Origin: Allochromatium vinosum DSM 180
GTDB lineage: Bacteria; Pseudomonadota; Gammaproteobacteria; Chromatiales; Chromatiaceae
DNA length: 64,000 nt
Direction: 5' to 3'
Assembly: GCF_000025485.1 (NCBI RefSeq)
Contig: NC_013851.1
Span: forward strand, 3,158,001-3,222,000
Shown here: positions 17,486 through 51,241 of the stretch, piece after piece
How the letters are laid out: each line of letters begins with the position of its first letter
Numbering within the stretch: position 1 is the first letter of the stretch
Notes under the pieces: model-generated
Told to the model about the DNA's origin: nothing
Seen by the model: only the letters and a program-made list of their open reading frames with translations
The model's database searches: none
Program-made: the position numbers and the translations under genes

Positions 17486-18905
17486 CATCTCATTACACAC
17501 ATCTTCATAAGTCATGAGATTCCCTGGCGAATTTGATTCCGGCGGCCACGTCTCTGATGCGCTGCAAACCGAGCCAAATGGTTTTTACACCGGGTTCGCC
17601 GTCGCCCTTGCGTCCGAGAAAACCGCCCTGGCGGGCGATCAAGCGCAGCACGTCGTTGAGTCGCGGGGGCTGCTTGGGTACGGGCTTCTTGGCCAGGATG
17701 TAGGCCGCTTGCCACTCCTCGGGTTCGAGCAGCAGCGAGGCCTCCAGGTCAGGCACCGTGCGTCCCAGGCGCATCAATCGTGCGATGCGCCATCCCACCA
17801 CCAGAAACAGCGCGAAAGCGCGTTCCAAGCGCTCGACAGTGCCCAGTTGCAGGGCCTCGACCCGACAGCCTTCCTTGAGCACCAAGAACAGCAACTCGAT
17901 TTCCCAGCGCGCCCGGTACCATTCGATCAGTTCGACGACGGCCTCGAGCGTGTCGGCTCGACGGTTGGTCAGCAGACGCCATTCGATCGGTTTGACGCCC
18001 TTGGGGGCCTCAATTTCACGCGCGATCACGCCGGTGACCTCAAGGTGACCTTGGCGCCGGTCCGAGAGGCTCACCCGCTGCGCATAGAGTTCCTGGCGCA
18101 CCGTTCGGGCGGTGCGCCCGCGTCCAGGCGGCACGGTGAAGCGCACCTCCCCGAGCGGTTCAGTGTCCAGCACACGTCCCCACAGCTTCTGGCCCTCGCC
18201 ACCGGGCAACGCGCGGTTATGCTTGGCGCGCAACAGCCAATCGGCGGGGGTTGCCAAATCCCGAGCGCGCACCATCAGGTCCAGTATGTCGGCCTCACGA
18301 TCGGCCACATAGACCAGGCGGGTGTCGGGCAACTCCCTGGCCAGGTCCGCCACCCGTTCATAGCCTTCTTTCCAGCGCACACTCTCGGGGCCTCCCGGAC
18401 GCTGGCCGTCGGCGTCTTTTGGCTCGCGGGCCCACATCCAGGCATCCAGGACACCCAACGGTTCGCGCTCGGGCGTCACCGCGTAGGTCGGATGCAGGTA
18501 CATCCCGCGCTGGGCCTCGTAGCTCAAGGGACCAAGTCCTTTGATCGTCTGGCCGTTGAAGTCCAGCTCCGTGGTGTCCTGCAGACACAGCACCACCGGA
18601 TAGGCCGCCATGCGCCTCTGCGTGCACTGACGATGCGGCTCAAGAATGTCGAGCCAGTCGTAGCGTTCACTGCCGAGAAACCGATAGGCCGCCTGCGTCT
18701 CCGCCCAGCCGTTGCAGGCCCCAGGAATACTCGCCGTCGGATGCTCGGCCAGGCGCTCGATCAAGTGGATCGCACGCCGGTCGCGGCGCGTGTCGCCCAG
18801 ATCAATCGAGGCCAATTCTTCCGACGCCCAGCCCATCGTGTGCTCCAACATGTCTCAGAAAAAACAGTTCGCTATCGTACACTTAAAGTTCTGTGTAATG
18901 GGATG
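17486..18905 (-). mobile_element. IS4-family (IS50-like) insertion sequence with 9-bp target duplication
   Basis: The 1420-bp element is bounded by imperfect inverted repeats: left CATCTCATTACACACATCTT (17486-17505) and right, read on the opposite strand, CATCCCATTACACAGAACTT (18905-18886), 17 of 20 matching. GGTATTGGG occurs directly on both sides (17477-17485 and 18906-18914), a 9-bp target duplication as made by IS50/Tn5 relatives. It carries one intact transposase gene and lies within an attC stem. The intact ends and gene suggest a recent, possibly active insertion. Confidence 0.9.
17505..18851 (-). CDS. IS4-family DDE transposase
   Basis: Transposase of 448 residues, close in size to Tn5 Tnp (476). 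The N-terminus WASEELASIDLGDTRRDRR is the Tn5-type DNA-binding start. The DDE triad is QDTTELDF, VADREADI and the E of YRARWEIELLFLVLK, which is the YREK signature of IS4 family (Y-x2-R-x3-E-x6-K). No frameshift is present. Start ATG 18851 lies 54 bases inside the right end. Confidence 0.95.
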   Translation of the reverse strand: MLEHTMGWASEELASIDLGDTRRDRRAIHLIERLAEHPTASIPGACNGWAETQAAYRFLGSERYDWLDILEPHRQCTQRRMAAYPVVLCLQDTTELDFNGQTIKGLGPLSYEAQRGMYLHPTYAVTPEREPLGVLDAWMWAREPKDADGQRPGGPESVRWKEGYERVADLARELPDTRLVYVADREADILDLMVRARDLATPADWLLRAKHNRALPGGEGQKLWGRVLDTEPLGEVRFTVPPGRGRTARTVRQELYAQRVSLSDRRQGHLEVTGVIAREIEAPKGVKPIEWRLLTNRRADTLEAVVELIEWYRARWEIELLFLVLKEGCRVEALQLGTVERLERAFALFLVVGWRIARLMRLGRTVPDLEASLLLEPEEWQAAYILAKKPVPKQPPRLNDVLRLIARQGGFLGRKGDGEPGVKTIWLGLQRIRDVAAGIKFARESHDL

Positions 18906-22976: not shown

Positions 22977-25340
22977 ATGTCTGCGGATACGCAACGGCCG
23001 GCGCATCGCTGGCGCTTCAATCGACTCGGCGGTTTCGATCAGGTCATGATCGACTCGGGCGAGGACATCCGTCATCTGCCCGAACTCGACCCCAAACTCT
23101 GGGCCGCCCTGAGCTGCCCGACCTCGGGGCTGGAGTTCGACGCCCATACCCTGGCTCTGCTCGATACCGACGGCGACGGACGCATCCGCATCGACGAGAT
23201 CAAGGAAGCGGTGCGCTGGACCTGCCTCAGGCTCAAGGAGCCGGGTGATCTGTTCAAGCACGAAGCCGGTCTGCCGCTGGATGCCATCGACGACAGCACC
23301 GAGGAAGGACGCCTGATCATGGCCTCGGCCTGGCGCATCCTCGACAACCTGGAACGCACCGAGTCGACCGTCATCACAGCGGCGGAGACGGCCAATACGG
23401 CTCAGATCTTCGCCGGATCACGCTTCAACGGCGATGGCGTGGTGCAGCCGAGCGCGGCCCGCGACGAGTCGGTCGCCCAGGCGATCAGCGACATCATGCG
23501 CTGTGTCGGCTCGCGGCCCGATCGCAGCGGCGAGGAAGGGATCGATCAGGCGCTCTGCGACCGCTTCTTCGCCGAGGCGGCCGAGTATCTGGAATGGTGG
23601 GCGCAGGCCGAGGCCGACGCGGCCAACATCCTGCCGCTTGGCGAGGACACCGAATCGGCCGCCGAACTCTTCGAGTCGGTCAAGACCAAGATCGACGACT
23701 ATTTCACCCGCGCCCGACTGGCCGACTACGACCAGCGCGCCGCCGAGCTGCTCAATCCGGCCGAGAGTGACTATGCCGCCCTGGCCAACCGCACCCTGTC
23801 GCTGGAGACCGAGGATCTGGCCGGCTTTCCGCTGGCGCGCGTCGAGCCGGGACGTCCGCTGCCGTTGCGTCAGATGCTCAATCCGCGCTGGGCACGGGAG
23901 CTGGACGCCTTTCGCGCCCGCGTGGTGGCGCCGTTGCTCGGCGAGCTCGACAGTCTGAGCGAAGCCCAGTGGCTGGATCTGAGCACGCGCTTCGAGGCCC
24001 ATTCGGTCTGGCGTGCGCGTCGACGCGGCGCGCTGGTCGCTCCGCTGGGCGCGACCCGGCTGCGGGCGCTGGTCGAGGGACCGTACCAGCAGGCCATCGC
24101 CGACCTGATCGAGCAGGATCTGGAGCTGGCCGGGGTGTCGGACGCCATCGAGTCGGTCGACCGGCTGGTGCACTACTACCAGCACCTGGAGCCGCTGCTC
24201 CAGAACTTCGTCTCACTGCGCGACTTCTACACGCCGGGCCGCAAGGCGGTCTTCCAGGCCGGTACCCTCTATCTGGACGGGCGCGCGTGCGAACTCTGCG
24301 TGCGTGTCGACGACCCGAGCAAACATGCCGCGCTAGCCAATCTCAGCCAGATCTATCTGGCCTACTGCGACTGCCGACGGCGCGGCGGCACCGAGACCCT
24401 GACCATCGCCGCCGCCTTCACGGCCGGTGACGGCGACAATCTCATGGTCGGACGCAACGGCGTCTTCTACGACCGCAACGGCGACGACTGGGATGCGACC
24501 ATCGTCAAGCTCGTCGAGCATCCGATCAGCGCCGGGCAGGCGTTCTGGTCGCCCTACAAGCGGCTGGGGCGGATGATCTCGCAGCAGATCGAGAAATTTG
24601 CCGGCGCGCGCGACAAGGCCGTCGATGCCGGTGCCGAGCAGGGCCTGACGACACTGGCGACCAAGGCCCAGGAGCGTTCAGCCGGCGCCGCCGCGCCGGC
24701 GGCGACCCCCTTCGATATCGCCAAGTTCGCGGGTGTCTTCGCCGCCATCGGTCTGGCGGTCGGCGCCATCGGCACGGCCGTGGCCTCGGTCCTGACGGGT
24801 CTGCTGTCGTTGAGCTGGTGGCAGATCCCGCTGGCGCTGCTCGGACTGATGCTGGCGATCTCGGGACCATCGGTGCTGCTGGCACAGCTCAAGCTGCGTC
24901 AGCGCAATCTGGCTCCGCTGCTGGATGCCAACGGCTGGGCGGTCAACGCCCAGGCCCGGATCAGTCTCCCGTTCGGCGCCACGCTCACCAGTACGGCGCA
25001 GTTGCCCAAGGGAGCGATGCGTTCGCTGCGCGATCCCTTCGCCGACAAGAAGCGCCCCTGGAAGACCACGCTGGTGCTCATTGCCCTGATGGCGGGCGCG
25101 GTTCTGGCCTGGCGCGCGGGGTATCTGGACACCTGGATCGAACGCTGGATGCCGCAACAGACCGAGGAGACGCCGACGGTCGAACCGGCTAAGGTCGTAC
25201 CGGAGCCGGGCGAACCCGCGACTGACGCACCGGCGGAAACGCCTGAGTCTGCCGCACCCGGCAAAGACGACGCGGCACCCGACGAGGCGGCCGAGTCAAC
25301 GCCGGCAACGGACGAACCGGCGACCGACACAGCGGACTGA
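22977..25340 (+). CDS. Large EF-hand membrane protein of unknown function
   Basis: Protein of 787 residues that I do not recognise. Near residue 63 is a canonical EF-hand loop, DTDGDGRIRIDE (D63, D65, D67, E74). Weaker NGDG and DRNGDD calcium-loop-like patches follow. The middle (about 170-560) is soluble and mostly helical. Membrane segments lie near 583-645 (two or three, AGVFAAIGLAVGAIGTAVASVL and QIPLALLGLMLAISG) and near 697-713. The last ~70 residues are an acidic P/E/A/T-rich tail. ATG 22977 follows AAGGGG. It is followed 32 bases later by a phosphohexomutase gene on the same strand. GC content is of core type. Confidence 0.85.
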   Translation: MSADTQRPAHRWRFNRLGGFDQVMIDSGEDIRHLPELDPKLWAALSCPTSGLEFDAHTLALLDTDGDGRIRIDEIKEAVRWTCLRLKEPGDLFKHEAGLPLDAIDDSTEEGRLIMASAWRILDNLERTESTVITAAETANTAQIFAGSRFNGDGVVQPSAARDESVAQAISDIMRCVGSRPDRSGEEGIDQALCDRFFAEAAEYLEWWAQAEADAANILPLGEDTESAAELFESVKTKIDDYFTRARLADYDQRAAELLNPAESDYAALANRTLSLETEDLAGFPLARVEPGRPLPLRQMLNPRWARELDAFRARVVAPLLGELDSLSEAQWLDLSTRFEAHSVWRARRRGALVAPLGATRLRALVEGPYQQAIADLIEQDLELAGVSDAIESVDRLVHYYQHLEPLLQNFVSLRDFYTPGRKAVFQAGTLYLDGRACELCVRVDDPSKHAALANLSQIYLAYCDCRRRGGTETLTIAAAFTAGDGDNLMVGRNGVFYDRNGDDWDATIVKLVEHPISAGQAFWSPYKRLGRMISQQIEKFAGARDKAVDAGAEQGLTTLATKAQERSAGAAAPAATPFDIAKFAGVFAAIGLAVGAIGTAVASVLTGLLSLSWWQIPLALLGLMLAISGPSVLLAQLKLRQRNLAPLLDANGWAVNAQARISLPFGATLTSTAQLPKGAMRSLRDPFADKKRPWKTTLVLIALMAGAVLAWRAGYLDTWIERWMPQQTEETPTVEPAKVVPEPGEPATDAPAETPESAAPGKDDAAPDEAAESTPATDEPATDTAD

Positions 25341-26941: not shown

Positions 26942-28624
26942 ATGTCCGCCATTCTCAATGCTCTGATCCATACCGTCACACGCACGCGCTGGTACAACTT
27001 CATGGGGCGCTGCCGCAACCTGGAGCAGACCCAGCGTCGCCTGCTGGAAGAGCGCCTGGAGCGCAACGCCGACACGGTCTTCGGACGCGAACATGGCTTC
27101 GCGCGTCTGAAGTCACCCGCCGACTATGCACGCGCCCTGCCCGTCTCCAGTTGGGAGACGGTCGACCCCTATGTCGACCGTATCATCGCCGGCGAGTCCC
27201 ATGTCCTGACCGCCGGTCCCCTGCCCTCCATGTTCAACAAGACCAGCGGCACCACCGGCAAGCCCAAGCTGATCCCGGTGACACCCGAGAGCAAGCAGGG
27301 CAACGCGCTCAACCAGAAGGTCTGGGCCTTCGCCGCCGTCGGCACCCATCCGCGCTTTCTGATCGGCAAGGTGTTTCCGATCGTCAACAAGGCGGTCGAG
27401 GGCTACACGCCGCACACCAACATCCCCTATGGCGCGGTCTCCGGGCTGATGGTGCGCGATGCCCATCCGCTGGCGCGCGCCAAGTACGCCTATCCCTATG
27501 ACGCCATCGAGATCGAGGACTTCAACGCGCGCCGCTATGCGATGATGCGCTGTGCCGTCCCCGAGTCGGTCAGCTTCATCCCGGCCTCCAATCCCAATGC
27601 CCTGCTCAAGCTGTTCGAGAGCGCCGATGAGCACAAGGCCGACCTCTTGCGCGACATCCACGACGGCACGCTCTCGGCAAACCACGACATCCCGGGACCG
27701 ATCCGCGAGGCGCTGAGCCGCCGCTTCAAGCCCAATCCGGGCCGGGCGCGCGAGCTGGAGCGGCTGGCCGAGCGCGCCGGACGCCTCCAGCCGCGCGACT
27801 ACTGGCCGGATCTCAAGCTCATCGGCTGCTGGAAGGGCGGCACCGTGGGCCAGTTCGCCCAGCATCTGCACGACTGGTGCTCACCGCAACTCAAACTGCG
27901 CGACACCGGCTACATGGCCAGCGAGGCCCACATCACCATCCCGATCAGCGACGAGGGCAACAGCGGTCTGCTGACCATCCACACCAACTATTTCGAGTTC
28001 ATCCCGGAGGAGGAATTCGGACGCCCGGACGCGCGCGTGCTCATGGCCCACGAGCTGGAGATCGGCGTGCCCTATCAGATCCTGCTGACCACGGCCGGCG
28101 GGCTCTATCGTTACTCCATCAACGACGTCATCGAGGTGACGGGGTTCTATCAGGGCGCGCCGCTGGTGAGCTTCCTGCGCAAGGGGCGCGACGTGATGAA
28201 CCTGCAGGGCGAGAAGGTCAGCGCCAATCAGATCCTGATCGCCGTCCAGGGCGCCTGTGCCGAGACCGGCGTGACGCCCATGCATTTCATGGTCGTGGGC
28301 GAGTCGGCGACCTCGCGCTATCACCTGCACATCGAACCGGCCGGCGAGACGCCTGAGCAGAGCGTGATGCACCGTCTGCTCGCGAGCTTCGACGCCCGTC
28401 TGTGCGAGATCAACCATGTCTTCAAGCGCTATCAGGAGCTCGATATGCTCAAACCCACGGCCCTGTCGCTGATGGAGCGCGGCTGGCTCGGCGCCATCGT
28501 CGACCACCAGGTCGCCTCCGGGATGCGCGACATCCAGTTCAAGCCCACGGTCCTGGGTTCGGAACTCCCGCCCGGCGGTCGCCTCCTCTATACCCTCGAC
28601 ATCCGGGAGGGCGCGCCCGCATGA
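26942..28624 (+). CDS. GH3-family acyl-acid amido synthetase
   Basis: Adenylate-forming enzyme of the GH3 family (560 residues), which activates a carboxylic acid with ATP and joins it to an amine or amino acid. ATP motif FNKTSGTTGKPKLIPVT, a GYMASEAHITIPI motif (plant GH3 YGASEG) and GLYRYSINDVIEVTGFYQG are present. Plant GH3 proteins conjugate auxin or jasmonate; bacterial ones are mostly uncharacterised, so the substrate is unknown. GTGAGGA precedes ATG 26942. The stop overlaps the patatin start (ATGA), so the two are co-translated. Confidence 0.93.
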   Translation: MSAILNALIHTVTRTRWYNFMGRCRNLEQTQRRLLEERLERNADTVFGREHGFARLKSPADYARALPVSSWETVDPYVDRIIAGESHVLTAGPLPSMFNKTSGTTGKPKLIPVTPESKQGNALNQKVWAFAAVGTHPRFLIGKVFPIVNKAVEGYTPHTNIPYGAVSGLMVRDAHPLARAKYAYPYDAIEIEDFNARRYAMMRCAVPESVSFIPASNPNALLKLFESADEHKADLLRDIHDGTLSANHDIPGPIREALSRRFKPNPGRARELERLAERAGRLQPRDYWPDLKLIGCWKGGTVGQFAQHLHDWCSPQLKLRDTGYMASEAHITIPISDEGNSGLLTIHTNYFEFIPEEEFGRPDARVLMAHELEIGVPYQILLTTAGGLYRYSINDVIEVTGFYQGAPLVSFLRKGRDVMNLQGEKVSANQILIAVQGACAETGVTPMHFMVVGESATSRYHLHIEPAGETPEQSVMHRLLASFDARLCEINHVFKRYQELDMLKPTALSLMERGWLGAIVDHQVASGMRDIQFKPTVLGSELPPGGRLLYTLDIREGAPA

Positions 28625-29490
28625 CGGTCGAACACGCCCGACGTCCCAAGGTCGCCGTGGTGCTCTCCAGCGGCGGCATCAAGCCGCTGGCGGCGATCCC
28701 GCTGTTCGAGTTCCTCGACGAGGCACAGATTCCGGTCGACCTGCTGGTCGGCTGTAGCGGCGGCAGCATCATGAGCGCCATGCGCGGCTGCGGCTATGAC
28801 TCCGATCACATCCGTGAACTCATCGGTCGTGTGGCCCAGCGCGGCCTGTTCTCCTCGATCAACCTGCGCGCGGTGCTCGGCATGGGGCGTCTGCCCTTCG
28901 GGCGCTTCGACACGCGCACCGGACTGGTGCGACCGGCCAAGCTCAAGCGGGCGCTCTACGAAATGTTCGGCGACCGGCGGGTCGAGGACCTCAACCCCAA
29001 GACCGTGATCCAGACCACGGACATCCAGACCGGAGAGGGCGTGGTCATCGAAGAGGGACGGCTGACCGACGCGGTCTATGCCTCCAGCGCGGTGTTTCCG
29101 ATGCTGCCGCCGCTGGAGATGAACGGACGTCTGCTCGCCGACGGCTACTACACCTCGTCGCTGCCGGTGATGGAGGCCGTCAAGCGCGGCATGGACGTCA
29201 TCATCGCCGTGATCTTCCATGATCCGCTCGATCATCGGGCCAACGACTACATCGCCTGCCTGTCCAATTACTACACCATCCAGGGTGACGCCATCACCCG
29301 CTTCCAGCTGGCGCTCTCGATCAATCTGCACCACCACGAGATCATCATCATCAAGGTGCCCTTCAACCGTCCCATCAACATGTGGGACGTGCATCACATC
29401 CCCTACATCATCGAGACCGGTCAGGCCGTGGTCGAGCAGCGCCGGGCGGAGATCCTGGAAGCGATCTCCGCCTTCTCCGGCGGCGCCTGA
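28621..29490 (+). CDS. Patatin-like phospholipase/acyl hydrolase
   Basis: Serine hydrolase of 289 residues. The oxyanion motif is SSGGIKP, the nucleophile elbow GCSGGS (S46), and the Asp is in LADGYY (D174), giving the patatin Ser-Asp dyad. No signal peptide or membrane segment is seen, so it is cytosolic. Start ATG 28621 overlaps the GH3 stop; open frame further upstream belongs to another frame of that gene. Linkage to GH3 suggests it supplies or releases an acyl chain (inference). Confidence 0.93.
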   Translation: MTVEHARRPKVAVVLSSGGIKPLAAIPLFEFLDEAQIPVDLLVGCSGGSIMSAMRGCGYDSDHIRELIGRVAQRGLFSSINLRAVLGMGRLPFGRFDTRTGLVRPAKLKRALYEMFGDRRVEDLNPKTVIQTTDIQTGEGVVIEEGRLTDAVYASSAVFPMLPPLEMNGRLLADGYYTSSLPVMEAVKRGMDVIIAVIFHDPLDHRANDYIACLSNYYTIQGDAITRFQLALSINLHHHEIIIIKVPFNRPINMWDVHHIPYIIETGQAVVEQRRAEILEAISAFSGGA

Positions 29491-29504
29491 GACCGGAGCG
29501 CGGA

Positions 29505-29531
29505 CCGGCGCGGTTCAGACCACCGCGCCGG
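29505..29531. terminator. Hairpin between convergent patatin and MFS genes
   Basis: CCGGCGCGGT (29505-29514) and ACCGCGCCGG (29522-29531) form a perfect 10-bp stem with a 7-base loop overlapping the MFS stop codon. No T-run; probably a bidirectional stop for both genes. Confidence 0.55.
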
Positions 29532-30747
29532 CCGGTTCGGCCTCGCGTTCCAATGAGGCGATGACCCGGTTGCTGGTGGGCCAGAACAGCGCTGTGATCC
29601 CCAGCACGGCCACGCCACTGACCAGAGCGGCCTGATGCAGCCCCAGCCACTGCGCCAGCCAGCCGCCGAGCAGATTGCCGATCGGGATGGAGCCGAAGGC
29701 CGCCAGCAGATAGAAAGCCATCACGCCCGCGCGATGCTCGTCGTCGATGCCGAGTTGCAGAAGCGTATTGGCCGCCACGCCCTGGGCGATGTAGGCCATA
29801 CCCAGCATCAGGGTCACGCCGCCGACGACCCAGGCATGAGCACTCAGACTCAGCAGGATGAGCGAGAGTCCCAGCAGGACGGCCGCCTGCCGGAACAGCG
29901 GCCACAGGCGCTCCGGCCGACGCTGGAGTCCGACCACCAGCGCGCCGACCAGCGCACCGGCGCCGATACCGCCCATCAGCCAGCCGAGTCCCTGAGCGCC
30001 CGCCCCCATCACCTCGTGCGCCCAGACCGGCAGCAGCACATAGACCGACATGGTCGCGACCGCCACCGACAGATAGGAGAAGATCGGATAGCGCAGGGTC
30101 GGCGTGGCGAGGATGAAGCCCAGATTGCGCAGTGCGCCCCGGCTGGGGCGCGGCCCCATGCTCGATACCGGCTCACTCAGACGGATCAGCACCAGCGCGG
30201 CCAGCATGAACAGATAGCTCAGCGCATTGAGCAGGAAGCAGGGTGCCGGGCCGAGCTGAGCCATCAACCAGCCGGCGATCGGCGGACCGATGGCACGCGC
30301 GCTGTTGAAGAGCATCGAGTTGACCGAGATCGCCGCCGGCAAGGTCGCCTTGTCGTGGACCAGACGCGGCACGATCGCCTGCCGCGCCGGTCCGTCGAAG
30401 GCGGTCAGCAGGCTCTGGATGCAGCCCATGACCACGACGAGCGGCAGGGTCAATAACTCGAAGTGGGTGATCACGCCCAGGATCAGCGCCTGCACCATGA
30501 ACAGCGATTGCAGGACCAGCAGTAGCCGGCGCCGGTCGAAGCGATCGACCAGCGAACCGGCCAGCGGCAGCAACAGCAGCGCCGGCAGGTTCATCAGGGC
30601 CGTCAGATAGCCCAGTTGCAGAGCCGAGTCGGTCAACTGATACAGCAGCCAGTTGAAGGTCGTGCTCTGGATCCAGGAACCGATCAGGGACAACCCCTGC
30701 CCGGTGAAGAACAGGCTGTAGTTGCGTTCGCGAAAGACACTCAACAC
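29515..30747 (-). CDS. MFS exporter, EntS-like
   Basis: Inner-membrane transporter of 410 residues with about 12 hydrophobic helices, typical of the TMS/EntS-like MFS group (FRERNYSLFFTGQGLSLIGSWIQSTTFNWLLYQLTDSALQLG start; VDRFDRRRLLL between helices 2 and 3; FDGPARQAIVPRLV). Relatives export siderophores or small metabolites. Located 37 bases after the RimK::GH3 gene on the same strand, probably co-transcribed, so it may export the product of that enzyme. Confidence 0.92.
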   Translation of the reverse strand: MLSVFRERNYSLFFTGQGLSLIGSWIQSTTFNWLLYQLTDSALQLGYLTALMNLPALLLLPLAGSLVDRFDRRRLLLVLQSLFMVQALILGVITHFELLTLPLVVVMGCIQSLLTAFDGPARQAIVPRLVHDKATLPAAISVNSMLFNSARAIGPPIAGWLMAQLGPAPCFLLNALSYLFMLAALVLIRLSEPVSSMGPRPSRGALRNLGFILATPTLRYPIFSYLSVAVATMSVYVLLPVWAHEVMGAGAQGLGWLMGGIGAGALVGALVVGLQRRPERLWPLFRQAAVLLGLSLILLSLSAHAWVVGGVTLMLGMAYIAQGVAANTLLQLGIDDEHRAGVMAFYLLAAFGSIPIGNLLGGWLAQWLGLHQAALVSGVAVLGITALFWPTSNRVIASLEREAEPAGAVV

Positions 30748-30784
30748 GACGGTCGGCCTCCCGGCTGGACGTGATCCGCCCGGC

Positions 30785-33358
30785 TCATGACAGTTCCAGG
30801 ACGCGCTCGATCATGTCCGGACAGGGCACCGACTCGCAGATCATGGGCAGCTTGATCTGAGCCGTGGTGACGCCGGGGCGCAGACGTTCCTCATAGAGCC
30901 GATCCAGCCAGCCCGTTTTCATGAGCACCAGATGCGGTGGTTGCAGCAGCTCCTGGCCGCGCAGCAGCCGATAGGGTTCGGCCTGGGCGACCAGCGCCTG
31001 TTCCATGTCCGCCAGCCAGCGCGCCTCGGGCGGCGTGCCCTCAGACTCGATGCAGAAGGCATAGCGATGCTGGTCGGCGTCGGCGACCAGACAGAAATGG
31101 CGCCAGCGCACCTGATGCTCGGCCAGCGTCTGACGCAGGATCTCGGCGAGGAAGGCGCCGCTGAGCTTCTCGCCGGCCAGATTGGCCACGTCGCGGGTCT
31201 TGCTGACGAAGGCGATGTTGGGATTCTGATCGGTGAAGCCGGAGACACGCACGATGTCGTGCAGGTTGTAGCGATAGAGTCCCGAATAGCTGGTGACGAT
31301 CAGACCGTATTCCTGGCCGTCCTCGAGTTCGTGCGCCAGGAGCGGCTCACCGCCGTCGAGCGGCTGGAATTCGAGGAAATAGCCGAGGATGGCCAGTGGA
31401 CCGGCGCTGACACCCGGCTTCATGGGGACGTTGAACTTGCCCTCGCTGGCGCCATAGCCGCAATCGACCAGCAGCACGTTCTCGGGCAGCAGCGGGCGCA
31501 GACCCTCCAGATAGCGGCCGATGGTGCCGCCCAGCCAGCAGGAGATCACGCGCAGGTTCGGCCAGTAATCGCGCGGTTCGAGCCGGCCGCGTCGTGCGGC
31601 CATGTCGCGCAGCGCGCGTGCGCGTTCAGGATCAGGACTCAGGTCGCGTTCGAGTGTGGCGCGCAGGTCCGACGCCAGCGGCAGCGCCGCAGAGAGCGTG
31701 CCGTGCGCGATGTCGTCGATGAGCCGGTCGCGGTGCTGGTCGGCCGTCTCCAGCAGCGCGGTCATGCGGCCGGGATTGTTGCCGACCAGCAGACGCACCT
31801 CGGGCTTGGCCAGGGCGAAGCGCAGGATCAGATAGTCGAGCGTCTCGCGATCCGGTGCCTGGAGCACGGCGGGCGGGAAGGCCAGTCGGCGCTGGATCTC
31901 GGGCGAGGTGCCGGCGAGGGTCAGGCCGGAGGCGAAACCGACCGGGATACCGCAGGCCGTCTGGCCGAGCACCGCCGGATTGGACAGCGGGATGAAGAAG
32001 CCGTCCAGGAGTTTGGGGGCCAGCTTGATGAGCAGCGCGGTGCGGATACGGCTGACCAGCGACTTGGCGAACTCGCCTTCGGCGCTCTCGGGGATGTTCT
32101 TGAACGCGCCTGTGGTGCCTGTGGTGCTGATGAAGTGCGTCGGCTGACCGGCGAACAGCAGATCCTTCGCCCCCTGCTCCAGACGCAGGGCATCGGGCGC
32201 GACATCCGGCCACTCGCGGACCGGCACCCGGCGCCGGAACTCCGCGACCGAACGGATGGCCTCGAACCCGTGCGTCTGGCCGAATTCGGTGTGCGCGTTA
32301 CGCTGAAGGATGTCCAGCAGCACCTGCTGCTGGATGCGCTCGACCGAGCCGCAGGCCCCCATGAACAGTTGCACCAGTTCCGGCTCCGACTTGCCGCGCA
32401 GTTCGTCGAGCGAACGCAGCGCCTCGGCCTGACGCCGGAACCGCGCCTTGGCGCGTGCCTGGAGCTGGCGGCCGATGCTCTTGAGTATCTCGGCCGGGAC
32501 ATTGAGGGCGTTGCAGGACTCGATGCCCTGGAAGCCGGGCATTGAGTTGGCCTCGCCGACGACGAAGCCATCGCCCTTGAACAGCAGATCGATGCCGCCG
32601 ATGTTCAGACCGATGATGTCGATCACCTGCTGGGACAGCTCGCGAATCGCCTCGCTCATCGGATAGTCGTTCGCGCTGCCGCCGGCCGAGACGTTGGACT
32701 TGAAGCCCTCGGACGAACGGTTCTGGCGCAGCATGCAGACCTGCGGCCGGCCATCGATCACCAGCACGCGCAGATCGCGCCCCCGGCTGTCGGCGATGAA
32801 CTCCTGCGCCAGCAGGGCCGATTGACAGCGGGCGGCGTCGAGCATTTCGAGCAGGGTCTCGAGTTCCTTCTCGGAATGGATCAGGGACACGCCATGCCCC
32901 TTGGAGCCGTCGAGCACCTTGATGACGACCGGCAGGCCCAGGGTCTCGCGGATGAAGGCGGGCGAGGTCTCGGGGCGCACCAGGATGGTCCTGGGCACCG
33001 GCAGACCGGCGGCGGCCAGCAGTTGCAGCGTCAGCAGCTTGTCGCCGGTGCGCTTCAGGGTCTCGGCCCGGTTCACGCACAGCACGCCCTGGGTCTCGAG
33101 CTGTTGCAGCAGGGCCAGGTTGTAGGCATCGGCCTCCTCGACGAAGGCGGCGACGGCGAACATGGGCGCGGCGACCTCGATGCCCTTGTGCAGGAGACGG
33201 GTCGGCGCCTCGGGATCGAGGACCAGCTCGACATCCTTGGGGTCGACGACTTCAAGCCGTACACCGGCTGCCCCGGCCTCCTGGCAGGCGCGCGTGAGCT
33301 CCGGGATCTCCTGGCCTGTATAGAGCATCCAGCCATGCATCATCTGTGTCTGACTCAT
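30785..33358 (-). CDS. Fusion of RimK-type ATP-grasp ligase and GH3 amido synthetase
   Basis: Single 857-residue protein with two ATP-dependent amide-forming modules. Residues about 1-320 are a RimK/LysX-like ATP-grasp: LPVVIKVLDGSKGHGVSL, FIADSRGRDLRVLVIDG, NVSAGGSA and GGIDLLFKGDGFVVGEANSMPGFQGIE (metal-binding E/N). Residues about 340-857 are a GH3 domain: STTGTTGAFKNIPES, CGYGASEGKFNVPM and GLYRYNLHDIVRVSGFTDQ. The start is MSQTQMMHGWML (33358) with GAGAGG upstream; the open frame upstream lies within the terminator region. The enzyme probably extends or caps an amino-acid amide, but its substrates are unknown. It is followed by an MFS exporter and faces a GH3-patatin pair. Confidence 0.9.
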   Translation of the reverse strand: MSQTQMMHGWMLYTGQEIPELTRACQEAGAAGVRLEVVDPKDVELVLDPEAPTRLLHKGIEVAAPMFAVAAFVEEADAYNLALLQQLETQGVLCVNRAETLKRTGDKLLTLQLLAAAGLPVPRTILVRPETSPAFIRETLGLPVVIKVLDGSKGHGVSLIHSEKELETLLEMLDAARCQSALLAQEFIADSRGRDLRVLVIDGRPQVCMLRQNRSSEGFKSNVSAGGSANDYPMSEAIRELSQQVIDIIGLNIGGIDLLFKGDGFVVGEANSMPGFQGIESCNALNVPAEILKSIGRQLQARAKARFRRQAEALRSLDELRGKSEPELVQLFMGACGSVERIQQQVLLDILQRNAHTEFGQTHGFEAIRSVAEFRRRVPVREWPDVAPDALRLEQGAKDLLFAGQPTHFISTTGTTGAFKNIPESAEGEFAKSLVSRIRTALLIKLAPKLLDGFFIPLSNPAVLGQTACGIPVGFASGLTLAGTSPEIQRRLAFPPAVLQAPDRETLDYLILRFALAKPEVRLLVGNNPGRMTALLETADQHRDRLIDDIAHGTLSAALPLASDLRATLERDLSPDPERARALRDMAARRGRLEPRDYWPNLRVISCWLGGTIGRYLEGLRPLLPENVLLVDCGYGASEGKFNVPMKPGVSAGPLAILGYFLEFQPLDGGEPLLAHELEDGQEYGLIVTSYSGLYRYNLHDIVRVSGFTDQNPNIAFVSKTRDVANLAGEKLSGAFLAEILRQTLAEHQVRWRHFCLVADADQHRYAFCIESEGTPPEARWLADMEQALVAQAEPYRLLRGQELLQPPHLVLMKTGWLDRLYEERLRPGVTTAQIKLPMICESVPCPDMIERVLELS

Positions 33359-33394
33359 TCGAGACCGCCTCTCGTCAAGATTGCTCGGAATCGG

Positions 33395-33459
33395 AAAAGA
33401 GCCGCCAGTGATCGGCGACCAGCCTCGTGTGGCCTGCGGAGGCTGGATACGGGCGGCTC
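33395..33459 (-). terminator. Nested-stem terminator of ygiQ
   Basis: On the minus strand GAGCCGCC (33459-33452) pairs with GGCGGCTC (33406-33399), and inside it CCAGCCTC (33446-33439) pairs with GAGGCTGG (33426-33419). The right arm is followed by TTTT (33398-33395). An intrinsic terminator for ygiQ is the simplest reading; a structured leader of the following gene is also possible. Confidence 0.55.
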
Positions 33460-33504
33460 CGTGGCGCAGAGGATCGCACAACTGATGTCATCAGGGCGAG
33501 AACT

Positions 33505-35616
<2,112 letters not shown>

Positions 35617-47213: not shown

Positions 47214-48701
47214 CTATTTGTCCGCCCTGGCCGTGCGCCGCCGGTCGAGCCGCCGGACGAACTCGGCGATCAGCCGTGCGTAGAGTTCATCGCCCAGCAC
47301 CCGATCCTCGACCCCGGCATCCAGACTGGGATTGTCGTTGACCTCGATCACGACCGGCCCCGTGGGCGTCTCCTTGAGATCCACGCCATAGAGTCCGTCC
47401 CCGATCAGGTCCGCCGCCTTGAGCGCAGTGCGCACGACCGCCGGCGGAACATCCGCGATGGCGAGCGTCTCGTGTCCGCCCTCGACATGACGCCCATCGC
47501 TCTCGTGCTTGACGATCTGCCAGTGATCCCGGCTCATCAGATATTTGCACGCGTAGAGCGGCTGGCGTCCGAGAATGCCGATACGCCAATCGAAGGGGGT
47601 ATAGAGAAATTCCTGAGCCAGGATCAGATCGGACTCCTTGAACAGTCGGGCGGCGATACGGGTCAGACTCGCTCGGTCCTCGGCCTTGTGGACGCCGCGC
47701 GAGAAGGACCCCTCGGGAATCTTGAGCACCACCGGATAGCCGATCCGCTCCTCGGCCTCCAGCAGATTCTCCTTACGCAGCACCAGCGTCTTGGGCCGCG
47801 GGATGCGATGCGCGGCCAGCAGTTCGGCCAGATAGACCTTGTTGGTGCAGCGCAGGATGGAGTCGGGATCGTCGATGACGACCATACCCTCGCTGTCGGC
47901 CTTCTTGGCGAAGCGGAAGGTGTGATGCCCGATGCGGGTGGTCTCGCGGATGAAGAGCGCGTCGTACTCGGCCAGACGGCTGTAGTCCTTGCGCTGGATG
48001 AGTTCGACGTTCACGCCCTGGCTCTTGCCGGCCTTGACGAAACGGGCGAGCGCCTTGGGGTCGGAGGGCGGCAGTTCCTCCTCCGGGTCGTAGAGGATCG
48101 CCAGATCATAGCGATAGGACAACCGCGCGCGCGGCTGGCGCCAGCGCTTGGACAGATAGCCCTCGAGCGCCGTGAACAGCGGACTCTCGACCTCGTTGGC
48201 CACGGCCGTGATCGGCAACGCCTTGATCGCGCCGATGCGCCAGGTGCCGTGCAACCGGAACTCGACCTTGAGGATGGGGCAGCGGAAGGTCTCGAAGATC
48301 AGGCGCGCCAGCGGCTGCAACTCCTTCACGTCGCACTGACCGAAGCAGATCGTCAGCTCATAGGCGGTCGGGACCAGCGCATTGGTCTTGCGCCGTCCGA
48401 GCAGACGCTGCGCCAGGATGTTGAGCTCCTCGGTCGCCAGATCGTAGAGTTCGCGGCTGGAGATCTCTTGAATGGTGCGTACCGTCGGAATGACCTTGTG
48501 CCCGCGCGCCTCGGCCAGCAGCGAGCAGTAATAGCCGAGCGAAAGGTAGCGATAACTGCGGCAGAGATTGATGACACGCAGATCGCGCTTGGCCGCCAGC
48601 TCGCCGCCGGCCAGATAGTCGCGCGCCGTGACCACGGGCAGACGCGGAAAACCGGGCTTCCAGTCGCCTGGTTGCTCCACCAACAACAGATGTTCAGCCA
48701 T
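47214..48701 (-). CDS. RimK-family ATP-grasp ligase with N-terminal RLAN-type domain
   Basis: Protein of 495 residues. The N-terminal half (LPVVTARDYLAG...RVINLCRSYRYLSLGYYCSLLAEARGHKVIPTV) is the RimK-like N-terminal (RLAN) domain, and the C-terminal half is the ATP-grasp (YPVVLKIPEGSFSRGVHKAED, GLYGVDLKETPTGPVVIEVNDNPSLDAGVED). This family makes C-N bonds to amino acids; the substrate is unknown. The neighbour upstream is a GNAT::C39 protein, a pairing I recall from other Gammaproteobacteria. Confidence 0.85.
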   Translation of the reverse strand: MAEHLLLVEQPGDWKPGFPRLPVVTARDYLAGGELAAKRDLRVINLCRSYRYLSLGYYCSLLAEARGHKVIPTVRTIQEISSRELYDLATEELNILAQRLLGRRKTNALVPTAYELTICFGQCDVKELQPLARLIFETFRCPILKVEFRLHGTWRIGAIKALPITAVANEVESPLFTALEGYLSKRWRQPRARLSYRYDLAILYDPEEELPPSDPKALARFVKAGKSQGVNVELIQRKDYSRLAEYDALFIRETTRIGHHTFRFAKKADSEGMVVIDDPDSILRCTNKVYLAELLAAHRIPRPKTLVLRKENLLEAEERIGYPVVLKIPEGSFSRGVHKAEDRASLTRIAARLFKESDLILAQEFLYTPFDWRIGILGRQPLYACKYLMSRDHWQIVKHESDGRHVEGGHETLAIADVPPAVVRTALKAADLIGDGLYGVDLKETPTGPVVIEVNDNPSLDAGVEDRVLGDELYARLIAEFVRRLDRRRTARADK

Positions 48702-48831
48702 GTGGATCGCGCTCGTTCATGGGGTCGGCCAGATATCGAAGCAAAGTGGAAGGTTTCAGGGTTCGCGCGGGCTCCGGGGACAGCCGCGCGGCCGGATCGC
48801 CCTGACAACGCACGAGACGCCCGTCGGTTGG

Positions 48832-49959
48832 TCAGTTGGAGACGAGCACGACGGCTTGCAGTCCGACCCGCCCATAGCGGGCCATGCGGGTGAATTCGTC
48901 GCGCTGGATCGGCATGTCGATGGAGTCGATGGTGGTCTCGCCGTTGGCGGTGTCGACATAGGGGTCGTGGACATAGACGAAGTGCTCATCGAAGCCGGTG
49001 ATCACGACCCAGTGCGGAAACTTCTCGCCATAGATGCGGTAGGAACTGATGAGCACCAGCGGCACGGCGCCGGCATCCCAGCGCTGCTGGATGTCCTGGA
49101 TGCCGAGCGTCCGGTAACGGATCGGGATGCCGCGTTGTTCGGCCTCAGCGAGCATGTCCTCGTGGACCAGACGCATGACTTCCTTCTTCTCGGGACTGCG
49201 CACCGAATCGACCAGCAGCACGCCGGTGTCGTTGACATAGACCTCGGCGGCGAAGTTCCGGCGCTGAGCGGCCAGTGCCAGACCGAGCGGGCCACAGCCG
49301 CCATGCCCCGAAGTCATGAAGATGGTGGTCGACTCGCGCCAGATGCGCAGTTCCAGGGTGCGGTTGAGCTCCAGGCTCGGGCGCAGCGCCTGCATGGCCA
49401 TCATCAGCGACGAGGGGCCGCAGGTGAAGTCCAGCGTTTGCTCGTAGAAGGGCACGCGCTTGAGCTCGGGCTTGAGACCGGGCGCCATCGCCTTCTCGTA
49501 GCGCAGCGCCTCCATGTGGTCTTCGTAATAGTCCGAGAGCACGCCGAAACGCCGATAGCCGGCGCGCTCGAACAGGTGTTGCGAGGCCAGATTGTCGCGC
49601 CGGATCTCCAGACGCAGATAGGCACGATCCTGCTCCCAGGCGGCCTGCTCGGCGGCGGCGACCAGGGCGCGCCCGAGACCCTGCCCGCGCGCCCGCGCGT
49701 CGATGGCGATCGAATAGATCCGGGCCACCGAGGTGGCGCGACTGAAGAGTACCAGCACATAGCCCAGCAGCTCGCCGTCGGCCTCGGCGACCAGCGTGCT
49801 CGCGCGTCCGCGCGTGAGCAGATAGCGGAACTGGCGCCGGCTGATCCGGTCAGTCTCGAAGCAGGCGTTCTCCAGCCGCAGCAGGGCGCTCAGATCACTG
49901 AGGACGGCAGGGCGGATCACGAAGGGCAGGATAGCGGCAGCGATTGACACACGTGGCAC
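48832..49959 (-). CDS. GNAT acetyltransferase fused to a C39-like peptidase domain
   Basis: Bifunctional 375-residue protein. Residues about 13-155 are a RimI-like GNAT fold (IAIDARARGQGLGRALVAAAEQ acetyl-CoA loop; ENPARNxx-like RDNLASQHLFERAGY). Residues about 165-370 are a papain-like C39 domain (DUF3335) with catalytic Cys in FTCGPSSLMMAMQ, His in HWVVITGFD and Asp in VHDPY. With the RimK-like gene it may make or trim a small peptide; this is an inference. Confidence 0.86.
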   Translation of the reverse strand: MPRVSIAAAILPFVIRPAVLSDLSALLRLENACFETDRISRRQFRYLLTRGRASTLVAEADGELLGYVLVLFSRATSVARIYSIAIDARARGQGLGRALVAAAEQAAWEQDRAYLRLEIRRDNLASQHLFERAGYRRFGVLSDYYEDHMEALRYEKAMAPGLKPELKRVPFYEQTLDFTCGPSSLMMAMQALRPSLELNRTLELRIWRESTTIFMTSGHGGCGPLGLALAAQRRNFAAEVYVNDTGVLLVDSVRSPEKKEVMRLVHEDMLAEAEQRGIPIRYRTLGIQDIQQRWDAGAVPLVLISSYRIYGEKFPHWVVITGFDEHFVYVHDPYVDTANGETTIDSIDMPIQRDEFTRMARYGRVGLQAVVLVSN

Positions 49960-50068
49960 GCCTGAGCGATTTCTATTGGAGCCGGCAAAGCCGACAATCT
50001 ACAGCGCGGCCCGAAAAACGCAAGATCGCTGCACCCATCGCCGTCGAGACCCGGAGAGCTTCAAGACC

Positions 50069-51241
50069 ATGACCACACAGTCCCCATCCCTCAAGACCAT
50101 GCTCGAAGGGCTGATCGGCACGCTCTCGGTGAGCAGCGTCACACCCGCCTTCGATCACAGCAACGAACCCTTGGTCACGCTGCTGGCCGACTGGCTGGAG
50201 AGCGCCGGATTCCGCGCCGAGATCCTGCCGGTCCCCGGACATCCGGGCAAGTTCAACCTGCTCGGCACGCTCGGCTCAGGCCCCGGCGGTCTGGTGCTAT
50301 CGGGTCACACGGATACCGTCCCCTTCGACGCCCCGCTCTGGACCCATGACCCGCTCAAGCTGACCGAAGCCGACGGGCGCTATTACGGGCTGGGCACCTC
50401 GGACATGAAATCCTTCTTCGCATTGGCGTTGGAGGCGGCGCGTGCGTTCCGCGCGTCGGATCTCAAGTGCCCGCTGATGATTCTGGCCACCGCCGACGAG
50501 GAATCGGCCATGCACGGCGCACGCGCGCTGGTCACGGCCGGACGGCCGCTCGGACGTCACGCCCTCATCGGCGAGCCGACCAATCTGCGGCCGGTACGTC
50601 TGCACAAAGGGGTGATGGGCGAATCGGTGCGGCTGGTCGGACGCAGCGGTCATGCCAGCGATCCAAGTCTGGGCAACAATGCGCTCGACGGCATGCACGA
50701 AGTCATGTCGGTGATCCTCGACTGGCGCGCTGAGTTGCAGCAGGCACATCGGCATCCGGCCTTTCCGGTCCCCTACCCCACAGTCAACCTCGGCCATATC
50801 CACGGCGGCGACAATCCCAACCGCATCTGCGGCGAGTGCGAGCTGCATCTGGATCTGCGCGTCCTGCCCGGCATGGATCCGGCTGACCTGCGCAACGCGC
50901 TGGCCGAGCGTGTCGCCGGGGTCGGCCGGCGGCGTGGGCTCCAGTGGTCGGTCGAGCCGCTGTTTGCGCCGATCCCGCCCGCCGAAACGCCGACGACGGC
51001 CGCTATCGTGCGCGCCTGCGAGTCACTCACCGGGCACGCGGCCGAGGCGGTCAGCTTCGGCACCGAGATGCCGTTCCTGAACCAGCTCGGGATGGACACC
51101 CTGATCCTGGGACCGGGCGACATCGCTCAGGCCCATCAGCCCGATGAGTTCCTGGCACTCGACCGCATCCCGCCGACGCTGGAGCTGCTGCGCGCGCTCA
51201 TCCGGCGGTTCTGTGTCGAGGGTGAAGCCGCCGCTGGCTGA
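50069..51241 (+). CDS. argE: Acetylornithine deacetylase ArgE
   Basis: M20 metallopeptidase of 390 residues that removes acetate from N-acetylornithine in arginine synthesis. Metal motifs GHTDTVPF, GTSDMKS and ADEESAMHGAR, dimer His in GRSGHAS and late PGDIAQAHQPDE are as in ArgE. ATG 50069 is chosen because the upstream frame (to 49976) lies in the divergent promoter region. It converges on hisC with 7 bases between. Confidence 0.93.
   Translation: MTTQSPSLKTMLEGLIGTLSVSSVTPAFDHSNEPLVTLLADWLESAGFRAEILPVPGHPGKFNLLGTLGSGPGGLVLSGHTDTVPFDAPLWTHDPLKLTEADGRYYGLGTSDMKSFFALALEAARAFRASDLKCPLMILATADEESAMHGARALVTAGRPLGRHALIGEPTNLRPVRLHKGVMGESVRLVGRSGHASDPSLGNNALDGMHEVMSVILDWRAELQQAHRHPAFPVPYPTVNLGHIHGGDNPNRICGECELHLDLRVLPGMDPADLRNALAERVAGVGRRRGLQWSVEPLFAPIPPAETPTTAAIVRACESLTGHAAEAVSFGTEMPFLNQLGMDTLILGPGDIAQAHQPDEFLALDRIPPTLELLRALIRRFCVEGEAAAG

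Follow-up and report, generated by a model that had tools for sequence, protein, structure and literature searches.

A rare, selectively maintained fusion of a RimK-type ATP-grasp ligase with a GH3 synthetase in Allochromatium vinosum and three related genomes

A gene of Allochromatium vinosum DSM 180 joins a RimK-type ATP-grasp ligase to a GH3 amido synthetase in one open reading frame, and comparison across genomes indicates that this fusion is real, rare and selectively maintained. It lies in the window, the whole 64,000-nucleotide stretch of DNA analyzed here (Table 1). The first-pass annotation had described two ATP-dependent amide-forming domains in one 857-residue protein, and its coordinates and domain calls proved correct against Pfam and NCBIfam. 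All three GH3 domain models of Pfam score above their curated cut-offs, placing the protein in the GH3 family, and the RimK family model (NCBIfam TIGR00768) is matched at 186.9 bits against a cut-off of 143.4. Among the best 25 of 35 NCBIfam rows no equivalog model assigns the RimK half a more specific function: the protein scores 116.7 bits for the ribosomal S6 ligase RimK (cut-off 331), 143.5 for LysX (275.6), 120.4 for MptN (350) and 80.5 for CofF (300). For the GH3 half, the equivalog model of the N-acyl-ornithine synthetase OlsH (NF052613, cut-off 620) gives 65.6 bits, lower than the 101.5 bits of GH3-A, a second and unfused GH3 synthetase of the window, and the 120.6 bits of a GH3-B, the type found in relatives at the place of the fusion. 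A structure prediction from a three-row alignment (the window and L033) was discarded at a mean pLDDT of 41.7, and a promoter and terminator scan gave no usable signal.

Table 1. Coordinates of the fusion, its domains and the neighboring features (window positions unless a locus is named)
Feature	Position	Strand	Remarks
RimK::GH3 fusion gene (F)	30785..33358	-	857 aa, open throughout
Rimk_N pre-ATP-grasp domain, residues 10-100	33059..33331	-	Pfam 24.6 bits, slightly below cut-off 26.4
RimK-like ATP-grasp domain, residues 105-295	32474..33046	-	Pfam 112.5 bits, cut-off 21
Linker, residues 301-334	32357..32458	-	Gapless across 4/4 fusions
GH3 N-terminal domain, residues 335-626	31481..32356	-	Pfam GH3 187.4 bits, cut-off 23.6
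GH3 central domain (GH3_M), residues 659-720	31199..31384	-	Pfam 61.1 bits, cut-off 23.6
GH3 C-terminal domain (GH3_C), residues 742-843	30830..31135	-	Pfam 35.8 bits, cut-off 23.6
MFS exporter (MFS_3 family), 410 aa	29515..30747	-	37 bp downstream of fusion, inside exchanged segment
GH3-A, second unfused GH3 synthetase, 560 aa	26942..28624	+	Convergent neighbor
Patatin-like lipase/acyltransferase	28621..29490	+	4-bp overlap with GH3-A
Segment exchanged relative to genus relatives G073/G124	29409..33507	.	DNA identity drop and gene content
HATPase_c_2 genes upstream of fusion in other loci	L034:2681-4186, L035:7467-8930, L036:8688-10265		

The longest possible ORF of the fusion frame begins at a TTG (position 33481) and encodes 898 aa; the ATG at 33358 has a purine-rich stretch upstream and coincides with the point from which the N-terminal sequence is conserved in the relatives. 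The first-pass annotation had named a frameshift near 32400, at the domain junction, as what could undo its reading. No such artefact is present, as the junction is crossed in a single reading frame and the alignment is gapless in all four known fusions. An origin in misassembly or frameshift, for which we found nothing in favor, is hardly credible given that the same fusion recurs in four genomes.

In the RimK half, K107, K147, D257, E269 and N271, presumably the ATP- and Mg-binding or catalytic residues of this type of enzyme, are invariant in all four fusions and align with identical residues in the five solved RimK-type chains compared. The GH3 half carries the three nucleotide-binding motifs of its family (STTGTTGAFK, GYGASEG and GLYRYNLHD). 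The earlier statement that all main motifs are kept thus holds for both halves, with one caveat in motif 1, where position 413 is threonine in A. vinosum and serine in the other three fusions. The aligned serine of OlsH, S115, is essential, and its replacement by alanine abolishes activity, according to the available text of the OlsH report (PMC12493201). We treat T413 as a caveat rather than a refutation, because threonine retains the hydroxyl and because some GH3 relatives carry alanine or glycine at the aligned position (28-row alignment).

A rough NG86 codon count over the six possible pairs of fusions points the same way for both halves, which look to be under purifying selection as judged from codon changes. 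For the RimK half all six pairs fall at dN 0.10–0.17, dS 0.68–1.90 and dN/dS of about 0.08–0.24, and for the GH3 half at dN 0.16–0.24, dS 0.69–1.32 and dN/dS of about 0.17–0.33. The linker stretch (residues 301–340) has a dN/dS above that of either half in 6/6 pairs; its dN exceeds that of the RimK half in every pair and that of the GH3 half in most. One might suppose from T413, given the essential serine aligned with it in OlsH (PMC12493201, available text), that one half alone is catalytic and the other binds or regulates. We consider this very improbable, since threonine keeps the hydroxyl, relatives vary at this position, and the remaining motif residues and low dN/dS are retained in both halves.

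That other genomes would carry the fusion, as the first-pass annotation had to expect, was borne out: the same collinear architecture is found in three more, 70–78% identical. The complete fusion thus occurs in 4 of the 194 genomes of the family (the window's own, G057 at 78%, G122 at 71% and G087 at 70%) and in 4 of the 210 genomes of the order. GH3 genes of any kind are themselves uncommon, being present in 3 of 8 genomes of the genus, 15 of 210 of the order, 12 of 398 in a phylum sample and 37 of 289 in the class of G618. In the other 11 GH3-bearing genomes of the order no GH3 frame is longer than 588 aa. When a class sample of 369 genomes was searched with a profile of the fusion, only the window's own match spanned both halves among the matches listed. 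The sole other frame of sufficient length in the phylum sample (876 aa, G871) is a fatty-acid hydroxylase::GH3 protein, not a RimK::GH3 one, and among the matches listed for the class of G618 no frame exceeds 697 aa. By Pfam, the GH3 frames of G871, G747, G870, G697 and G222 contain no RimK domain. Among 72,556 plasmid records, 58 match part of the fusion protein and none covers 80% of it, and a DNA search of window positions 27000–29000 against plasmids gave no match. Two short peptide patterns, whose reach is close relatives, gave 119 stretches in viral contigs, none of them confirmed, and a pattern scan of genome contigs with the same reach confirmed one of 50 candidate stretches. The whole-genome samples overlap and cover a small part of Pseudomonadota; Bacteroidota, the phylum reported in the source text available to hold most OlsH homologues, was touched by the close-relative pattern scan only. 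Within this range the RimK::GH3 fusion is rare.

In a GH3 tree, several outer branches of which are long and of unsure placement, the four fusions form one clade (100/100), with GH3-B as sister (92/98, just under the tool's star); further out come GH3-A (95/99) and then a group of fatty-acid hydroxylase::GH3 proteins with G530 (86/95). Two genomes of the same genus (G124 and G073) and two of the same family (G132 and G028) hold at one locus a GH3-A/patatin pair and an MFS exporter/GH3-B pair. A further genome, G031, has its two GH3 genes on separate contigs, and the genes after GH3-A there encode an alpha/beta-hydrolase and a cNMP-domain patatin. GH3-B adjoins an MFS exporter in all five. The window lacks a resident GH3-B, and the fusion occupies the place that GH3-B has in G124 and G073, between the exporter and YgiQ. 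We read the fusion as a paralogue of GH3-B with elaborations, which in A. vinosum has taken over the position next to an MFS exporter that GH3-B holds in relatives.

Identity along the locus shows that a segment has been exchanged relative to the two genomes of the genus. Relative to G073 and G124, DNA identity in 150-base bins is 86–99% on the left flank (below ~29.41 kb) and 69–77% in the exporter, and alignment resumes on the right at ~33.50 kb, with about 89% identity over 7.2–7.4 kb. The window's GH3-A, patatin and YgiQ share 91.0–97.5% identity with those of G124 and G073; its exporter is 71.0–73.2% identical to the exporters of the five relatives, which are 76.8–97.3% identical to each other. 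The simplest reading of these sequence comparisons is that exporter and fusion arrived together and displaced a resident exporter/GH3-B pair, probably in a single exchange, although there may instead have been two separate events or a rapid change of the exporter. The G+C content of the exporter (0.663) and the fusion (0.669) against 0.644 for the window does not mark the segment as foreign, and no genome that pairs a fusion with an exporter of the window's type turned up as a possible donor; beside the other fusions the MFS protein is of another type. The RimK half groups, in a tree of 25 rows, with four stand-alone ligases of unassigned role (Pseudoalteromonas, G008, G282 and G250), apart from 17 others, with 100/100 support but with very long branches flagged by the tool. 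The annotated neighbors of the closest stand-alone RimK relatives include no GH3; they are PrmC, GshB, a radical SAM protein and a benzoate transporter, and give no hint of the acceptor.

An MFS transporter adjoins the fusion in all three genomes in which the downstream side can be read, the contig of G057 ending there. That of G122 and G087 is an MFS_1 protein, 20–21% identical to the window's exporter, so that the MFS proteins found with the fusion are of two types, in line with a product that is exported or flipped. On the upstream side, the fusions of G057, G122 and G087 are preceded by a HATPase_c_2 protein of ~500 aa (67–68% identical to that of G087), to which the window's genome has no match. 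Its nearest NCBIfam model in two of three cases is RsbW, far below cut-off, and that of G057 has a GNAT match slightly below cut-off. Elsewhere in the window, within 47214–51241, a second RimK-like ATP-grasp protein (RLAN and RimK domains, 495 aa) adjoins a GNAT protein with a DUF3335/C39-like peptidase domain, and an M20 peptidase gene on the opposite strand. The window also encodes a 787-aa protein (22977–25340, plus strand) that neither Pfam nor NCBIfam matches at E 0.001, upstream of a phosphoglucomutase-like gene, and a Tn5-type transposase with DNA-binding, DDE and dimerization domains (17505–18851, minus strand).

RimK-type ligases join an amino acid to a carboxylate. We tentatively propose, as the likeliest of the readings considered, that the fusion is a bifunctional amide synthetase making a small molecule of the N-acyl dipeptide type, the GH3 half acting before the RimK half and the product leaving by the MFS protein. 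The GH3 half would adenylate a carboxylic acid, with a free fatty acid as the likeliest candidate, and acylate an amino acid at its amine (ATP to AMP and PPi). The RimK half would then phosphorylate the free carboxylate of the N-acyl amino acid and add a second amino acid, perhaps a glutamate-like one (ATP to ADP and Pi), and the adjacent MFS protein would export the product. Substrates, order of steps, export and product are all inferred. The reading is favored by OlsH, a bacterial GH3 protein that makes N-acyl ornithine from a free fatty acid, ATP and ornithine (PMC12493201, in the text available); if a GH3 half that acylates an amino acid and a RimK half that extends carboxylates work in series, an acyl-amino acid-amino acid product is expected. 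Of the two products raised by the first-pass annotation, that of peptide elongation followed by capping, with two successive amide bonds, would agree with what both families do chemically and with the neighboring exporter, as far as sequence can tell. A molecule flanked by two amino acids is a less natural outcome: both halves are expected to couple a carboxylate with an amino acid's amine, so that a linear acyl-amino acid-amino acid is the simplest product. Also counted in favor were the complete domains with their conserved motifs, the low dN/dS of both halves, the adjoining MFS transporters, the place of GH3-B taken by the fusion, and genes with a bearing on lipids or N-acyl amides near GH3 genes (the patatin after GH3-A, and a hydroxylase, an enolase-superfamily enzyme and a penicillin amidase elsewhere). 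Counted against were the rejection of glutamate, glutamine and glycine by OlsH, given in the available portion of its report (PMC12493201), the low score for the OlsH model, the sub-threshold equivalog scores of the RimK half among the rows listed, the GH3-free surroundings of its stand-alone relatives, T413, the polyketide synthase and radical SAM neighbors of other GH3 genes, and the fruitless look for a donor genome.

The steps might also run in the opposite order. The RimK half would first link an amino acid with an acid or with another amino acid; the GH3 half would next activate the new carboxylate and couple an amine or amino acid, or else cap the N terminus of the dipeptide with an acyl group. 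The E-64 pathway has this order: once an ATP-grasp enzyme has formed a pseudodipeptide, an amide bond synthetase of the ANL family acts on its carboxylate, with similar stepwise use mentioned for CysC and CysD of cystargolide (PMC12568646, available text). RimK also precedes GH3 in the chain. Nonetheless, we consider the reverse order unlikely. In the loci read, no RimK-like gene adjoins the nearest paralogues, GH3-A and GH3-B, so that the acyl-amino-acid step looks the older one and the order GH3 then RimK is favored; and the E-64 synthetases are said to show no sequence similarity to characterized bacterial ones, GH3 going unmentioned in the text available (PMC12568646).

It is also conceivable that the two halves act on separate substrates and that the fusion serves co-expression or complex formation, the GH3 half doing the job of GH3-B and the RimK half modifying a protein or another cofactor. 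Such a division would suit the varied acceptors of RimK-family ligases, the place of GH3-B that the fusion takes beside the exporter, and the poorly conserved linker. It seems improbable to us, however, since the halves stay fused, each with its catalytic residues, in all four genomes, and since enzymes of similar chemistry that occur as a fusion generally belong to one pathway. The sequential GH3-then-RimK reading can be carried further, to a single-chain, NRPS-independent lipodipeptide synthetase that forms both amide bonds of an N-acyl dipeptide by two unrelated chemistries, acyl-adenylate (GH3) and acyl-phosphate (RimK), hands the N-acyl amino acid from site to site, and is traded, in one cassette with the exporter, among purple sulfur bacteria; in this full form the idea is possible but less likely than not.

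GH3 genes of other genomes bear on the identity of the acid. In G511 (L092:7828-10395) and G871 (L103:754-3336), GH3 is fused to an N-terminal membrane fatty-acid hydroxylase; in G530 (L098) the two lie side by side, and an enolase-superfamily enzyme follows GH3 in G511 and G530. The hydroxylase half of G511 has its best match in the ornithine-lipid hydroxylase OlsE (205.6 bits, cut-off 475), a likeness that speaks for aminolipid chemistry in the clade nearest to the GH3 proteins of Chromatiaceae, and that slightly raises the GH3-then-RimK reading and slightly lowers the reverse order. In three genomes (L110, L111 and L112; G870, G222 and G697), GH3 lies directly beside a penicillin amidase (PF01804), as if maker and breaker of an N-acyl amide were paired. 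A different type of GH3 stands beside radical SAM genes in G042, G024 and G210 (loci L101, L100 and L102) and on an IncF plasmid of Citrobacter portucalensis (L117), and one GH3 gene is close to a Streptomyces polyketide synthase. In view of these last neighbors, the substrate may be an acid other than a fatty acid; the family seems to handle lipids in some settings and other acids elsewhere.

Ornithine lipid was considered as the GH3 product and rejected. The genome of A. vinosum has one OlsB-like N-acyltransferase gene (L118:1138-1899; G000:C1 near 120640), above cut-off for PF13444 and under cut-off for the OlsB models (160.5 bits against 350 and 144.7 against 320). With this gene present and the OlsH model scoring far under its cut-off, the GH3 genes need not serve an ornithine-lipid pathway. 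A literature search under the name Chromatium vinosum, the name Allochromatium being outside its scope, found nothing linking the organism with ornithine lipid.

If the two halves do work in series, a culturable bacterium with a published complete genome would possess a compact two-step amide synthetase, and a small molecule of one acyl group and two amino acids would be made without the usual large assembly machinery. Such an enzyme would be a sign of a class of acyl-peptide metabolites among phototrophs and would provide a biocatalyst for acyl dipeptides. It would also help to assign functions to bacterial GH3 proteins, of which OlsH is a characterized one and on the rest of which its authors call for work (PMC12493201, available text). 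The exchange provides a natural test: next to an exporter, one and the same position is held by the fusion or by unfused GH3-B in closely related genomes.

The first-pass annotation had thought the pairing of the two enzymes not described. As an architecture, RimK::GH3 is indeed new within the literature searched, which leaves most subscription journals outside, and it is built from two known enzyme families. Our search there found no fusion of GH3 with ATP-grasp, and the sole text that mentions RimK with GH3 uses the latter for glycoside hydrolase family 3; the available main text of a pyrite transcriptome study of A. vinosum names neither GH3, RimK nor Alvin_28 (the fusion's own tag was not tied down). 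The succession of activities is another matter, since an ATP-grasp enzyme followed by an adenylating amide synthetase, acting in trans, has been published for E-64 (PMC12568646, available text). The fusion would be consistent, by analogy, with such a succession of amide-forming enzymes without an NRPS, although the E-64 enzymes are separate fungal proteins and the main text available mentions neither RimK nor GH3.

With OlsH of Singulisphaera acidiphila the fusion shares the GH3 family and the three nucleotide motifs (PMC12493201, available text), and ATP-dependent N-acylation of an amino acid, as by OlsH, may by analogy be expected of its GH3 half. It differs in that OlsH has no RimK domain, in scoring far below the OlsH model, and in adjoining an MFS exporter, whereas OlsH adjoins an N-methyltransferase and an alpha/beta-hydrolase acyltransferase in the same account. 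With the RimK-family alpha-L-glutamate ligases (TIGR00768; solved examples 7qyr and 5zct) it has in common the Rimk_N and ATP-grasp domains and the ATP/Mg residues, but it falls below the equivalog cut-offs given above and is joined to GH3. The hydroxylase::GH3 proteins of G511 and G871 are likewise N-terminal fusions, with a GH3 of a neighboring clade, but their partner is a membrane fatty-acid hydroxylase and not a ligase. Closest of all is GH3-B (G124, G073, G031, G132 and G028), sister of the fusion's GH3 half and also found beside an MFS exporter, which is about 35–40% identical to the fusion in the aligned part and has no RimK half.
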